NCBI GenBank assembly: GCA_021779835.1
Contig: JAJXZX010000005.1
Location: 1 to 64,000 of the forward strand
DNA from: Pseudomonadota bacterium
GTDB taxonomy: Bacteria > Pseudomonadota > Alphaproteobacteria > Rhodobacterales > Rhodobacteraceae
Direction of reading: 5' to 3'
DNA length: 64,000 bases
Part shown: piece after piece, positions 5,096-62,404 of the stretch
How positions within the stretch are numbered: the stretch's first letter is position 1
Layout of the letters: each line of letters opens with the position of its first letter
Translations under genes and position numbers: made by a program
Notes under the pieces: model-generated
What the model saw: only the letters and a program-made list of their open reading frames with translations
Database searches by the model: none
What the model was told of the DNA's origin: nothing

Positions 5096-6145
5096 ATGAA
5101 TATGCGCAACATTGTGCTGGCAGCAGCAGCGGCGTTCGCGATCGGCTCGCCGGCACTGGCAGCAGACGCGGGTCTCACGGTATTCGACTGGGCCGGCTTC
5201 GACCAAAAGAACCTTGTCCAGACCTATGTGGACAAATACGGCGCCCTGCCGACCTATGCCTTCTTTGGTGACGATGACGAGGCGTTCCAAAAGCTGTCGT
5301 CGGGCTTCAAGGTTGACGTCGCCCACCCCTGCTCGCAGATGATCCAGAAATACCGCGATGCGGGTCTGATCGTGCCTTGGGATACCTCGAAGATCCCGGA
5401 TTTCAAGAACATCGCGCCGCGCTTTCTGAACTCCAAGGTATTCGTGGACAATGGCACGGTTTGGTACATTCCGACCGACTACGCCTACACCGCGACGCTG
5501 TATAACGCAGACAAGGTTCCCGCTGCCGACGCGGCCTCGCTCGATGTGTTCGTCAACCCGAAATACAAAGGCCGCATCTCGCTGCCCGACAACTCGGATG
5601 ACGTCTGGGCGCTCGCCTTGCTTGCCACCGGCGTCACCGACTGGACCACGGTTTCCGACGCGCAATTCGCCAAAGCCGCCGCTTGGCTGCGCGAGGCGCA
5701 TAAGAACGTGGTGTCCTACTGGACCGATCCGTCGAACCTGAACCAGCTGATGCAGTCGGGTCAGGTTCTGGTGTCGTGGTCGTGGAACGACTCGGCCACG
5801 CAGTTGAAAGCGGCGGGACAGCACGTCGTGTTCAACCGCTCGCCGAAAGAAGGCGCGTCAAGCTGGTTCTGCGGCTGGGTCCACATGAAAAACGCTCCCG
5901 GCGATCCGCAGAAAGCCTATGATTTCGTCAACGCCTTCCTCGGCAAAGATACCGCCAAGGGGCTGTTGGACGATATGGGTTACGCGTCAACCAACACGGT
6001 CGGCGAAAACGCGATTCCGCATGATGAACTGGTGGCCCATGACGTCGATCCGGTCACGACCACCTTGCTGGCGCAGACCCCGCTTGACCAGAAACTCCGC
6101 GACCGGATGGTGGCGGAATTCCAGAAGATCAAGTCGGGCTTCTGA
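5096..6145 (+). CDS. periplasmic polyamine-type (PotD/PotF-like) solute-binding protein
   Basis: A 349-residue extracellular solute-binding protein. Residues 1-23 form a Sec signal peptide (basic start, hydrophobic core, ALA-A cleavage motif). The mature part resembles spermidine/putrescine binding proteins: TVFDWAGFDQKNLV at the start, WYIPTDYAYTATLYNADKV, and a tryptophan-rich VSWSWND loop for a cationic ligand. No permease or ATPase gene lies beside it, so it is an orphan binding protein that would have to serve a transporter encoded elsewhere. A GGGGA ribosome-binding site precedes the start, and a strong terminator follows the stop, so it is a one-gene unit. The ligand is inferred. Confidence 0.85.
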   Translation: MNMRNIVLAAAAAFAIGSPALAADAGLTVFDWAGFDQKNLVQTYVDKYGALPTYAFFGDDDEAFQKLSSGFKVDVAHPCSQMIQKYRDAGLIVPWDTSKIPDFKNIAPRFLNSKVFVDNGTVWYIPTDYAYTATLYNADKVPAADAASLDVFVNPKYKGRISLPDNSDDVWALALLATGVTDWTTVSDAQFAKAAAWLREAHKNVVSYWTDPSNLNQLMQSGQVLVSWSWNDSATQLKAAGQHVVFNRSPKEGASSWFCGWVHMKNAPGDPQKAYDFVNAFLGKDTAKGLLDDMGYASTNTVGENAIPHDELVAHDVDPVTTTLLAQTPLDQKLRDRMVAEFQKIKSGF

Positions 6146-6172
6146 GACCCAGTTGGGGTAAGAATTGAAAGG

Positions 6173-6201
6173 CGCCCGGGGAAAACTCCGGGCGTTTTTT
6201 T
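6173..6201 (+). terminator. rho-independent terminator
   Basis: A 7-bp GC stem (CGCCCGG/CCGGGCG) with a short loop is followed by seven T residues (6195-6201), 28 bases after the stop of the binding-protein gene. This is a textbook intrinsic terminator. Confidence 0.93.
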
Positions 6202-6400
6202 GCGAACCGGGGATCTTGCGCTCGGCAACGCTTGGTAATGCTGTTGATACAAATGATTTAGGCAAGAAAATTGAGGTTTTCCTGTCGCGGCAGCGTGGGT
6301 TCGGTTCATCCGAATGGCGGCTATGCGGGACGCAGCGAATATTGGCGTTTTGGCCCGCGTCGCGGCCCGGACTGCGCGCGCCCCCCCATGCTCTGCGCCC

Positions 6401-6429
6401 TTGCGATCCCCCCCCGGCCCGCCTATATT
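6401..6429 (+). promoter_or_regulatory. sigma-70 type promoter of ssrA
   Basis: TTGCGA (6401-6406), a 17-bp spacer, and TATATT (6424-6429) lie immediately upstream of the acceptor piece of the tmRNA. The predicted start point is about 6436. The same TTGCGA -35 is seen before purC (22857-22885). Confidence 0.75.
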
Positions 6430-6435
6430 CGTTCT

Positions 6436-6760
6436 GTCCGGGTCAAACCGGACTATGGTGATAAACGCGCATGTAATAAGCGGATCGGACCCGGGGGCGG
6501 TACCCGGCGACTCCACCAAAAACCCGACATTGCGGGTCATGGGGTCGAAACAGGATCGACGAACGACTAAAGATGTTAGCTTTTGCCCGGTGAGGTACCA
6601 CCGTTATCGGTCCGAAACGTACAGTTGCCAATGACAACCGTGCTCCGGCAATGGCTCTGGCTGCGTAAGCAGTTCGAGTCGCCGAAACTAAGTCCTTGCG
6701 CTTAGCAGCGTAAGGCGGGGTTCGCAGGCACCTGGCAACAGAAGCCTGCACTTTCCCGCC
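6436..6760 (+). ncRNA. ssrA: tmRNA, circularly permuted two-piece form
   Basis: tmRNA rescues stalled ribosomes and tags the nascent chain for proteolysis. The permuted alphaproteobacterial order is visible. The acceptor piece comes first and ends in CCA at 6518. It is followed by a short intervening loop with its own hairpin (6521-6538), which is expected to be processed out. The coding piece then begins GGGGTCG at 6541 and pairs with CGACTCC at 6508-6514 to rebuild the tRNA-like acceptor stem. The tag frame at 6627-6668 reads ANDNRAPAMALAA then TAA. A pseudoknot-like GC hairpin (GCAGGC/GCCTGC) closes the 3' end, which I place near 6760. The ends are estimated. Confidence 0.95.
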
Positions 6761-6877
6761 TTCGTGACCTTGCTAACCCGCGCCCGATGCTTTCGGCGGA
6801 AAAACCCGCGCCGCACCTCTTTCATTCGATCCCGAATCCCTTATGCTGCCGGAAATTGCGTCCGAAAGGCTGATCCG

Positions 6878-7339
6878 ATGTCGCGTACCATTGATTACGG
6901 CAACTTGATGCACCGCGCGATGCGAGGGCTCATCCAAGAGGTGCTGAGCGACGTCGCGAAAGACGGCCTTCCCGGCGCGCATCACTTCTTTATCACCTTC
7001 GACACCGGCCATTCCGGCGTAAAAATGGCGGATTGGCTGAAAGAGCGTTATCCCGCGGAAATGACCGTGGTGATCCAGCATTGGTTCGAGAACCTGACGG
7101 TCAGCGACGACGGCTTTGGCATCACGCTGAATTTCGGCAACCAGCCGGAACCGATGTATATTCCCTTCGACGCGGTGCGCACCTTTGTTGATCCCTCGGT
7201 GGAGTTCGGCCTGCGGTTTGAAACGCATGACAGCGAAGACGAGGACGACGAAGAGGCCGACTTTGCCGAGGACGCCGAAGACGACGAACCCCGCAAGGAT
7301 GCCGAAGTGGTCAGCCTCGACAGCTTCCGCAAATCCTGA
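6878..7339 (+). CDS. sspB: SspB-family ClpXP adaptor
   Basis: SspB binds the ssrA tag and delivers tagged proteins to ClpXP. The protein is 153 residues: a folded N-terminal domain (about 1-115, including HHFFITFDTGHSGVKM and the beta-rich VSDDGFGITLNFG segment), then a very acidic linker (EDEDDEEADFAEDAEDDE), then a short tail EVVSLDSFRKS that fits the ClpX-docking peptide of the family. The start ATG at 6878 matches family N-termini; the open frame extends 38 codons further without support. It lies 118 bp after ssrA on the same strand, so tag and adaptor genes are physically linked. Confidence 0.9.
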   Translation: MSRTIDYGNLMHRAMRGLIQEVLSDVAKDGLPGAHHFFITFDTGHSGVKMADWLKERYPAEMTVVIQHWFENLTVSDDGFGITLNFGNQPEPMYIPFDAVRTFVDPSVEFGLRFETHDSEDEDDEEADFAEDAEDDEPRKDAEVVSLDSFRKS

Positions 7340-7425
7340 TTTGCGGCGGTATACGACAGTATGCCAATTGATTTCGTAACCATTGGCCGCTATTCCCTCC
7401 GCTATATCTTCAGGAGGCTTGCAGC

Positions 7426-8820
7426 ATGACCGCCACCCGCACCGAAACCGACAGCTTTGGCCCGCTAGAGGTTCCCGCCGACAAATACTGGGGCGCGCAG
7501 ACCCAGCGTTCCGTGATGAACTTCCCGATTGGCTGGGAACGCCAGCCGGTCAAGATCATCCGCGCGCTTGGCGTCATCAAGAAAGCCTGTGCGCTGGTCA
7601 ACATCGCGCAGGGCGACATCGACGCAAAGCTGGGCGAGACCATTGCCGCTGCGGCACAAGAGGTGATCGACGGCAAGTTCGACGACAACTTCCCGCTGGT
7701 GGTGTGGCAAACCGGCTCTGGCACCCAGTCGAACATGAACGCGAACGAGGTGATTTCCAACCGCGCGATCGAGATGCTGGGCGGTGAGAAGGGCTCCAAG
7801 AAGCCGGTTCACCCGAACGACCATGTCAACATGGGGCAATCCTCGAACGACACCTTCCCCACCGCGATGCATGTCGCGATCGGCTTGATGGCGCGCGATG
7901 TGCTGCTGCCGGGACTGGAAAAGCTGCACGCGGCGCTGGCGGCGAAATCGGTGGAGTTTAAGGACATTATCAAGATCGGCCGCACCCACACCCAGGATGC
8001 GACGCCGCTGACGCTGGGGCAGGAGTTTTCCGGCTACGCGCATCAGGTCTCGCAGGGGATCATGCGCGTCAACAAGGTGCTGCCAGAGATTTATGAGTTG
8101 GCACAGGGCGGCACCGCCGTCGGCACCGGGCTGAACACCAAGGTCGGTTGGGACACCCGCGTCGCGGCGCAAATCGCGGCGATCACTGGCCTTCCCTTCG
8201 TCACCGCGCCGAATAAATTCGAGGCGCTGGCGGCGCATGATGCGATGGTGATGTTCTCGGGCGTGCTGAAGACCATCGCGGCAAGCCTGTTCAAGATCGC
8301 CAACGACCTGCGCTTTCTCGGCTCGGGGCCGCGGTCGGGTCTGGGCGAGTTGATCCTGCCGGAAAACGAGCCGGGCTCGTCGATCATGCCTGGCAAGGTC
8401 AACCCGACGCAAGCCGAGGCCCTGACCATGGTGTGCGCGCATGTGATGGGCAACGATGCCGCCGTGGGTTTCGCCGGCAGCCAAGGGCATTTCGAGCTGA
8501 ACGTCTTCAACCCGATGATGAGCTATAACGTGTTGCAAAGCATGCAGCTTTTGGGCGATGCGGCGGGGTCGTTCACCGACAATATGGTGGTCGGCACCAA
8601 GGCGAACATCGCGCGCATCGACAAGCTGATGAAGGAAAGCCTGATGCTGGTGACGGCGCTGGCACCGACCATCGGCTATGACGCGGCGACCAAGGTGGCC
8701 AAGACCGCGCATAAGAACGGCACCACCCTGCGCGAAGAGGCGATTGCGCTGGGTTATGTCGATGGCGAGACCTTCGACAGCGTGGTGCGGCCCGAAGACA
8801 TGATCGGCCCCAAGGGCTGA
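7426..8820 (+). CDS. fumC: class II fumarate hydratase
   Basis: A 464-residue fumarase of the TCA cycle (fumarate to L-malate). Seen are the substrate loop [31 protein letters not shown], the [16 protein letters not shown] segment, and the superfamily signature [13 protein letters not shown]. Length and motifs match iron-free class II enzymes, stable under oxidative stress. AGGAGG is placed 8 bases before the ATG. DUF4169 follows by 1 bp, then a ribbon-helix-helix gene, so the three form one transcription unit. Confidence 0.97.
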
Positions 8821-59163: not shown

Positions 59164-59628
59164 TCAGCCCCGACCGCGATAGGGTTGCACACCCTGCTCG
59201 GGGATCCACACGCCTTCGGGTGGCGCGCCGGTTTGCCAGAATACATCAATCGGAATGCCACCGCGCGGATACCAATAGGCGCCAATGCGCAGCCATTTGG
59301 GGTCGAGGAGCGCCACCAGTCGCTTGCCTATATCCAAGGTGCAATCCTCGTGGAACGCGCCGTGGTTGCGGAAGGACACGAGGTAGAGCTTCAGCGATTT
59401 CGACTCGACCAGCCAGTCGCCCGGAATGTAGTCGATCACGATGTGCGCGAAATCCGGCTGGCCGGTCATCGGGCAAAGCGAGGTGAATTCCGGCGCGGTG
59501 AAGCGCACGACATACTCGGTGCCGGAATGTCCGGCGGGCACCCGTTCGAGGATCGCCGCCTCCGGGCTTTCCGGGGCCGAGGTCGGCTGCCCCAGTTGGG
59601 ACAGCCCGGATACGTCGGTCTTGACCAT
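59164..59628 (-). CDS. queF: NADPH-dependent 7-cyano-7-deazaguanine reductase
   Basis: A 154-residue short-type QueF reducing preQ0 to preQ1 in queuosine synthesis. The nucleophile Cys52 and Asp59 are in [11 protein letters not shown]; the QueF signature ESKSLKLYL is at 75-83. The ATG at 59628 overlaps the metK stop (TGATG), so the two are coupled. Pairing metK and queF makes sense because queuosine synthesis needs SAM. Confidence 0.95.
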
Positions 59629-60794
59629 CAGAGACCCTTTTTCAACACATCCGCCAGATCGGTGCGTTCCCACGAGAAGCCGCCGTCGTTCTGCGGCGCG
59701 CGGCCAAAGTGGCCATACGCGGCGGTGCGCGCATAGATCGGGCGGTTCAGGCCCAAATGCGTGCGAATACCGCGCGGGGTCAGGTCCATCGCCTGCGCAA
59801 CGGCACTTTCAATCGCGGCCTCATCCGCTTGCCCGGTGCCGTGGGTGTCGACATAGATCGACAGCGGCTTGGCCACCCCGATGGCGTAAGACAACTGGAT
59901 CGTGCAGCGATCCGCGAGGCCAGCGGCCACCACGTTCTTGGCCAGATAGCGCGCGGCATAGGCGGCCGAACGGTCAACCTTGGTCGGATCCTTGCCCGAA
60001 AACGCGCCGCCGCCATGCGGGGCAGCACCACCGTAGGTATCCACGATGATCTTGCGCCCCGTCAAACCCGCGTCGCCATCCGGGCCGCCGATCACGAAGG
60101 TGCCGGTGGGGTTGACCCACCACTCGGTTTTCTCCGTGATCCAGCCCGACGGCAGAACTTCGCGGATATAGGGCTCCACGATGGCGCGGATGTCGGCAGA
60201 GGTTTGTTTCTTGTGCGCATGTTGGGTCGAGAGCACGATCGAGGTGACTTCGACCGGCCTGCCATCCTCATAGCGCAGCGACAATTGCGACTTGGCATCC
60301 GGGCGCAGGTCGGGCTCTGCCCCCGATTTGCGCGCTTCCATCAGGCGGCGCAGGATTGCGTGGGCGTAATGGATCGGCGCTGGCATCAGTTCCGGCGTTT
60401 CCGTGCAGGCATAGCCGAACATGATGCCCTGATCGCCAGCGCCGTCACGGTCCACGCCCTGCGCGATATGGGCCGACTGCTTGTGCAGATAGTTATGCAC
60501 CTTCAGCGTTTCCCAATGAAACTTCTTCTGCTCGTAGCCGATGTCTTTGACGCAATCGCGCACGATACCGTCCACGCGGTCCATGAAGGCGTCGAGTTTC
60601 TCGGGGTCGCTGAGGCCCACCTCACCGCCGACCACAACGCGGCTGGTGGTGGCAAAGGTCTCACACGCGACGCGCGCATTCGGCTCTTCGGTCAGAAAGG
60701 CATCAAGGACAGCGTCCGAGATACGGTCACAGACTTTGTCGGGGTGACCCTCCGAGACGGACTCGGACGTGAACGTGTAATTCTTGCGTGACAT
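59628..60794 (-). CDS. metK: S-adenosylmethionine synthetase
   Basis: A 388-residue MetK making SAM from methionine and ATP. Seen are [24 protein letters not shown] (ATP loop), [12 protein letters not shown] and [16 protein letters not shown]. The length matches. A SAM/SAH riboswitch occupies the leader just before the start, covering the ribosome-binding site. It follows lnt on the same strand. Confidence 0.98.
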
Positions 60795-60803
60795 GGGGAA
60801 GTG

Positions 60804-60844
60804 CTCCGTTGGGTAAATCTGCCACGCCAGGAAGCCGTTGTGAC
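60804..60844 (-). promoter_or_regulatory. SAM/SAH riboswitch of metK
   Basis: The transcript reads GTCACAACGGCTTCCTGGCG then GTGGC, a short spacer, and CCAACGGAGCAC before the ATG at 60794. This matches the SAM/SAH riboswitch class known upstream of metK in Rhodobacterales: a stem GTCAC/GTGGC with a CUUCC-containing loop that can form a pseudoknot with GGAG, the Shine-Dalgarno at 60804-60807. Ligand binding is expected to block translation. Confidence 0.9.
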
Positions 60845-60883
60845 AGTTGTGCAAAGGCGGGGTATCCCCACCGACCCGCGCGG

Positions 60884-62404
60884 TCAATGGGCGATTCGCC
60901 GCCGCCGAAGGAATAGCCCGAAAGCGAGCGCGAGAAGCAACACCGCAATGGGCATATCGCCCGTGCGGCTATAGGGCGTTGGCGGAAATGCCCCGGGAAT
61001 GGCCGCGTCAATATGCCCCTCGGCCAACATCGGCAGGCTTTGCAGCACCCGCCCCCGCGCGTCGATCACCGCAGAGACGCCGGTATTGGCGTCGCGCAAC
61101 ATCGGCAAGCCCTGCTCGATCGTTCGCAGCCGCGCCTGCGCCAGATGCTGGAACGGCCCGGACAGGGTGCCAAACCACGCGTCATCGGTGACTTGCAGCA
61201 TCCAGTCCGCCCGGCGCGGCGCGGCGCTTACATCCTGTGGAAACACGGCCTCGTAACAGATCAGCGGCAACACGGAGCCAAGCGGGCCAAGGTCAAGCAC
61301 CGCCGCCCCCGGCCCAGGCGTATAGCCATTGCCCTGCGAGGGCGCGTAATCAGGGATGCCGGTGATCTGGTACAGCAGGTCGCCCAGCGGGATATACTCG
61401 CCGAACGGCACAAGGTGATGCTTGTCGTAAGTGCTGGTCACCCGGCCCGCCGGATCAAGGACCGCAAGACTGTTATAGGCGCGGTCAGCCTCCGTCCGCT
61501 GTATGCCAAGTGCCACGGTCGCGCCGTTAGCAGCGCTTGCGATCAGTTGCAGCCCTTGCCCGGCGCGATTGAGCAGAAACGGCACCGCGGTTTCCGGCCA
61601 GACGATCAAATCCGGCTTGGGCGTTCCCGGGAGGGCAGTTTGCTCCAGCAGGCGGCGGAAGAATTCGCGCTGTAGCTCCGGTTGCCATTTCAGCGATTGC
61701 GTCGCGTTGGGTTGCACAAGACGAACGATGCCGGGATGCGCGGGCGCAGGCTCTGGCAGGTCCAACCGCCACAGGCCGTAGCCGCCGGCCGCGCCCAACA
61801 GCGCGCTGGCGAAAATCGTGCCACGGACAAGGCCAAAAGCCGCCGGGGCAGCGGCGGCCAGCGTGGTCATCAAGGTCAGCCCGATTGCCCCTACAAGTGC
61901 GGCCACTTGCGCGGGCCAAGCGCCGATCCAGATATGGCCGACCAAGTTCCACGGAAATCCGGTGAGGACATAGGTGCGCAACAACGCCGTTGCAGCCAGC
62001 AGCACCGCGAAGGCCAGCGCCCTGCCCCGCTGATCGCGTCCCAATGGCACGGCCAGACCCGCTGCCAGCGCCCAAAATAGCGCCATGCCAAACGACATGA
62101 ACACCAGCGCGAAGGGCGCCATCCAGCCGTCTTGTTGCACGTCGATCAGGAAGGGATTGACGATCCAGAACATCCCGGCGGCAAAATAGCCCGCGCCTGC
62201 GAACCAGCCCAGTGCCGTGGCGGCCCGCCAACCCTTCTCTTGCGCCAGAACCCCAAACAGGGCTGCAAGCGCCGGCATCGCCAACCACCACCACCCGAGC
62301 GGAGCGAGACCAGAGGCGACAACCGCGCCCAGCAACGCGCACAGAACCAGCCGCCCACGCAAACGGCGCGCTGGAAGCCCCAAATCCATCCACGAGCGCG
62401 CCAT
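60884..62404 (-). CDS. lnt: apolipoprotein N-acyltransferase
   Basis: A 506-residue inner-membrane enzyme that adds the third acyl chain to lipoproteins. About six N-terminal membrane helices precede the periplasmic nitrilase domain. Its catalytic triad is visible: Glu in VWPETAVPF, Lys in [14 protein letters not shown] and Cys in [11 protein letters not shown] final helix ([16 protein letters not shown]) is followed by RRRR. It lies 3 bp downstream of the corC-like gene. Confidence 0.95.

Follow-up and report, generated by a model that had tools for sequence, protein, structure and literature searches.

Permuted ssrA and the adaptor gene sspB as a recurrent alphaproteobacterial gene pair, with a predicted sspB promoter in Rhodobacteraceae

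The window analysed here, a 64,000-nucleotide stretch of a Rhodobacteraceae genome, contains a permuted ssrA gene with sspB downstream of it in the same orientation, and this adjacency is more general than the window alone could show. The arrangement would represent the alphaproteobacterial version of a long-standing linkage in which permuted ssrA precedes sspB. Where very few nucleotides separate the two genes, transcription would have to enter sspB from ssrA, having begun either upstream of ssrA or within it, and the tmRNA precursor would double as the sspB mRNA leader. In the family of the window, sspB would have its own promoter, additional or instead, which mostly lies 24-31 nt upstream of the start codon. 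In this genome sspB would be transcribed mainly from a promoter at about 6814-6847, with some read-through from ssrA, which is to be expected since no terminator intervenes. Taken as a whole, this is the explanation we favour, with fair though not strong confidence. Both genes are well known, and a stable RNA that also forms the leader of an mRNA encoding the adaptor of the same pathway would, if true, be an uncommon coupling; the family of the window provides the contrast case, with a separate (predicted) sspB promoter.

tmRNA puts a tag on stalled nascent chains, and SspB binds this tag and hands the tagged protein to ClpXP. The features of the locus are as follows.

6401..6429, + strand: predicted ssrA promoter, TTGCGA / 17 nt / TATATT (promoter scan and class-wide consensus)
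6436..6518, + strand: acceptor piece of the two-piece tmRNA, 3' CCA at 6516-6518, 5' end approximate (sequence, ARAGORN, Rfam)
6519..6540, + strand: intervening segment, presumably cut out of the permuted precursor (sequence, Rfam)
6541..6752, + strand: tmRNA coding piece (ARAGORN, Rfam)
6627..6668, + strand: tag frame ANDNRAPAMALAA and stop (ARAGORN)
6724..6749, + strand: hairpin GCAGGC...GCCTGC closing the 3' end of the tmRNA, no strong U-tract behind it (sequence, fold)
6814..6847, + strand: sspB promoter-like element conserved in Rhodobacteraceae, CTTTC ... CGAATCCCTTATGCT, 30 nt upstream of the ATG (conservation)
6842-6847, + strand: TATGCT block of the sspB element
6878..7339, + strand: sspB, alphaproteobacterial SspB adaptor, 153 aa, acidic linker, C-terminal VVSLDSFRKS (Pfam, structure match, alignment)
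7426..8820, + strand: fumC, class II fumarate hydratase, downstream of sspB (database match, neighbour survey)

The permuted tmRNA gene runs from 6436 to about 6752 on the + strand and encodes the tag ANDNRAPAMALAA; ARAGORN places it at 6426-6759 (+) with the same tag. It belongs to the Rfam family alpha_tmRNA (RF01849), which matches 6397-6752 over model positions 1-355 at 300.8 bits (E 8.6e-87) against a gathering score of 50. This match is the sole one in the genome, and the family tmRNA_permuted (RF04321) also matches the gene. The order is the permuted one, with the CCA lying 5' of the coding piece; a tag frame and its stop codon are present. As read from the sequence, the acceptor stem is formed by 6508-6514 pairing with 6541-6547, the first seven bases of the coding piece (from G6541), and the arms of the terminal hairpin are 6724-6729 and 6744-6749. 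The gene has the same order of acceptor piece, intervening segment and coding piece as the Caulobacter-type two-piece tmRNA (RF01849) and is not notably different from it; the tag differs by sequence only. Across the class the consensus at ssrA starts is CTTnnA ... CCTATATT, with the layout CTTnnA, 18 nt, TATATT.

The sspB gene starts at the ATG at 6878 and its stop ends at 7339; its product is a member of PF04386 (156 bits, cut-off 27) and the only match to that family in the genome. Among solved structures its closest relative is 2nys (AGR_C_3712p; full-domain match, E 7.6e-35), the Agrobacterium SspB; 2qas and 2qaz are those of Caulobacter. The C-terminal VVSLD.FRK is common to these structures and the window protein, which otherwise diverge in sequence only, and the V/I-VSLD segment is kept in seven aligned family members. 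The predicted function of the protein is that of the adaptor binding the tag and delivering to ClpXP. SmpB and ClpX are encoded elsewhere in the same genome, so that the rescue pathway is complete as far as tested. The gene 3' of sspB, fumC, is the usual one there, in 71 of 76 family loci with room for it among the best-matching loci of a larger set.

An earlier note on this DNA had described ssrA and sspB as same-strand neighbours 118 bp apart with no terminator between them. Both statements are borne out: the gap is 118 nt from the ARAGORN end (6759) to the ATG at 6878, or 125 nt from the Rfam end, and a scan for terminator-like sites on the + strand was blank from 6752 to 6878. Within 5800-7800 it listed a single + strand site, at 7348-7365, 3' of sspB. 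A classical GC hairpin with T7 is seen by eye at about 6171-6205, 3' of the gene upstream of ssrA; such terminators therefore exist in this genome, yet none occurs in the ssrA-sspB gap. Folding of 6712-6880 (z -1.73) gave the hairpin at the end of the tmRNA, and no long run of U follows it. The two genes thus have the arrangement of a co-transcription unit in being neighbours on one strand with no intrinsic terminator between them; the further mark of such a unit, a second gene with no separate promoter, is not seen, given the predicted promoter-like element at 6814-6847.

To see how far the pairing extends, 114 genomes taken from across the class, with close to as many families represented, were searched for RF01849 and PF04386. 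An over-threshold tmRNA was found in 108, SspB in 107 and both in 105; two genomes with sub-threshold tmRNA matches only (G047, G068) were not used. Direct adjacency was defined as a Pfam match starting on the same strand no more than 400 nt from the tmRNA end (median 106). The pairing, for which the earlier note had proposed a survey in alphaproteobacteria, clearly recurs: sspB lies directly 3' of ssrA in 75 of the 105 genomes with both genes, or 75 of 102 where adjacency could be judged, contig ends (G065, G016) and a partial match (G106) accounting for the difference. The non-adjacent pairs comprise 14 on the same contig, farther apart or otherwise arranged, and 16 on another contig. Such recurrence, in 75 of 105 genomes sampled class-wide, is more than chance would give, and from this distribution the linkage probably dates from early in the class. 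Outside it, none of 51 genomes of a phylum draw with over-threshold RF00023 and PF04386 had the genes adjacent when coordinates were compared by eye, and the non-alphaproteobacterial pairs on one contig were more than 100 kb apart. In E. coli, sspB sits in an operon with sspA and ssrA lies near smpB; these are likewise trans-translation genes linked to a partner, but the partners differ from those of the alphaproteobacterial pair.

The spacing within the adjacent genomes is informative. In 18 of the 75, no more than 61 nt separate the tmRNA end from the start of the SspB Pfam match, a distance for which the choice of start codon is irrelevant; by our own estimate this is too near for an ordinary promoter outside ssrA together with a short leader and the first codons. 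From the tmRNA end to the picked sspB start the median is 76 nt, with fewer than 45 nt in 25 of 74 genomes (G069 having no picked start codon), although a simple rule chose the starts and probably put some of them too far 3'. Several genomes with short gaps are not small (G080, 5.9 Mb; G104, 6.0 Mb; G064, 4.5 Mb), so that genome streamlining alone is not a sufficient explanation. Related genomes are similar: in the family of G107 the gap is 17-30 nt in eight of nine genomes (one of the eight, G220, having a truncated locus and an estimated end) and 120 nt in the other; the one further genome of the family of G080 has a gap of 60 nt; and in the family of G052, which among the adjacent set has the SspB nearest to 2qas (63%), sspB lies within 1.5 kb 3' of the tmRNA in 23 of 29 genomes with a tmRNA. 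In the 18 short-gap genomes the tmRNA precursor is probably also the 5' leader of the sspB mRNA, and a joint transcript would be the simplest explanation of the shortest gaps in the class.

If read-through matters, adjacent genomes would be expected to lack a U-tract (at least 5 T in 8) behind the tmRNA hairpin. A U-tract follows ssrA in 22 of 75 adjacent genomes vs 19 of 31 non-adjacent ones, the latter including three genomes without sspB and leaving out G065, where the downstream bases are missing. The difference lies in the GC-rich genomes, where U-tracts are rarer when sspB is adjacent (3/39) than when it is not (4/7); in the two AT-richer strata (9/18 vs 8/12 and 10/18 vs 7/12, adjacent first) there is no clear difference. 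The stratified test gave p 0.04 with kinship ignored, which is weak support for read-through.

These data bear on another account of the window, in which a single RNA begun at the ssrA promoter and running on through sspB would be the main source of sspB mRNA, and both products would be freed by processing at the ends of the tmRNA. The gap without a terminator, the same gene order in most of the class and the U-tract contrast in GC-rich genomes are all consistent with it, but this contrast is not clear in the AT-richer strata, and the conserved promoter-like element at 6814-6847, close to sspB, argues against it; we therefore think it unlikely, if still worth considering, as the main source here. 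The proposal in the earlier note that processing of one transcript could yield both products is well supported for other alphaproteobacterial lineages, where the gap leaves too little room for a promoter, but is not needed in the window itself, where sspB has a promoter-like element of its own.

That element is shared by the family as a 34-nt sequence, CCCCTTTCCTT-N6-CGAATCCCCTATGCT, mostly 24-31 nt before the ATG. It exceeds the threshold at 74 of 81 loci in five-fold cross-validation, with random folds across which related loci may be divided, vs 1 of 1415 control windows, which were random 110-nt windows from the same loci that may lie in coding DNA and may differ in composition from intergenic DNA. 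Conservation amounts to 33.5 bits within the element, compared with 3.0 bits over the preceding 30 nt and 6.1 over the 25 nt that follow. The copy in the window scores 40.1 and the next best site in the window 9.0, using a matrix trained on the scored loci. The element is present alike where ssrA and sspB are 120 nt apart and where the gap is 2-4 kb, and the other family member in the class draw, G018, in which the genes are non-adjacent, scores 36.5.

The two blocks of the element are 17 nt apart, with CGAATC conserved between these hexamer-like blocks, and the CTTTC at the -35 place differs from the sigma-70 consensus. Because of the 17-nt spacing and the related layout of the ssrA promoter (CTTnnA, 18 nt, TATATT), we read the element as a promoter; on the strength of its conservation, 6814-6847 is probably a separate promoter of sspB. 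The earlier note had held that a strong sspB promoter with no read-through from ssrA would count against a joint transcript; the first part of this is now predicted, while read-through may still occur alongside it. Alternatively, the 34 nt could be another cis signal of sspB, either a regulator site or an RNA element in the 5' UTR of a read-through transcript. Its content of about 33 bits, in our judgement above that usual for promoters, the conserved CGAATC and its uniqueness in the genome would fit such a signal; the spacing of the blocks as -35 and -10 boxes, the similarity to the ssrA promoter (CTT...CCTATATT, 18 nt) and the tight distance to the ATG, which fits a short 5' UTR, speak for a promoter instead, and we consider the alternative quite improbable.

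Other assignments were tried and rejected. A heat-shock (RpoH) promoter was discarded because the window has CTTTC without TTG at this place; RpoHI and RpoHII promoters have TTG in the -35 region, according to PMC3441632. A regulon role was dropped, as the whole-genome search gave a single match at up to 3 mismatches and the reversed pattern none. The element is also not class-wide: the 73 other adjacent genomes with a picked start score below 0, as judged from the best 12 in falling order, and among 22 non-adjacent sspB genes only that of G018, from the same family, scores. In two Leisingera loci (L122, L133) a GC hairpin with a T-run is seen by eye just before the element, about 55-75 nt before the sspB start; this would insulate sspB from transcription upstream.

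Within the family the two genes are mostly apart. The survey covered the best 80 SspB loci of a larger set of named genomes, which, judged by title, belong almost entirely to Rhodobacteraceae and their kin; in these, a tmRNA was present in the examined DNA of 56 and absent there in 24. In only 9 of the 80 is ssrA directly 5' of sspB on the same strand with a gap below 300 nt, and in 46 it lies 0.8-4.6 kb 5' of sspB. Tight linkage is therefore not required in this family. The adjacency in the window may be ancestral and retained, or may have been left behind by a deletion. The 46 loci (e.g. L068, L069, L086) have recurring genes between the two, mostly on the same strand, the largest groups being, by names assigned by eye, chromate transporter (29 loci), von Willebrand-like (16), NTF2-like (10) and ChrB-like (8). 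At one locus, of Phaeovulum vinaykumarii (L128, 4436-4767), the tmRNA lies just 5' of sspB but is inverted, and has the odd tag ANTNAAPRALAA.

Such separation would also be expected if the adjacency were inherited gene order with no regulatory meaning, both genes being expressed independently everywhere. The pair is split in most of the best 80 loci and split or separated in 30 of 105 genomes class-wide (three not judgeable), and the 10 rows with direct adjacency are dispersed over the SspB tree, with 9 changes, a number not clearly below that in shuffles. Against this stand the same-strand order in 75 of 105 genomes, from nearly as many families, and at least 18 genomes with a gap leaving a promoter no room, and we regard this account as very unlikely. 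Our preferred reading, of an old pair with a family-specific sspB promoter, extends to a broader suggestion that we hold about evenly poised: in much of the Alphaproteobacteria, the tmRNA precursor would be bifunctional, comprising the tmRNA pieces and the adaptor mRNA, and one promoter together with passage through the hairpin would set the supply of tag and adaptor, co-regulating ssrA and sspB; some families, including that of the window, would have gained or kept an sspB promoter, freeing the pair to drift apart.

In a literature search covering titles and abstract openings, none mentioned ssrA-sspB adjacency in alphaproteobacteria. It may well have been published already, most likely by Keiler et al. 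2000 or by Lessner et al. 2007, the latter on SspB of C. crescentus. The pair was also looked for on viral contigs; three from IMG/VR (L267, L268, L269) have an SspB relative, with no tmRNA in the stretches examined, and may be host DNA.

Elsewhere in the window, a SAM-SAH riboswitch (RF01727, 59.1 bits) is present at 60802-60849 on the - strand, directly 5' of an open reading frame (59628-60887, - strand) that by eye resembles S-adenosylmethionine synthetase; this riboswitch 5' of the synthetase gene is a known arrangement.
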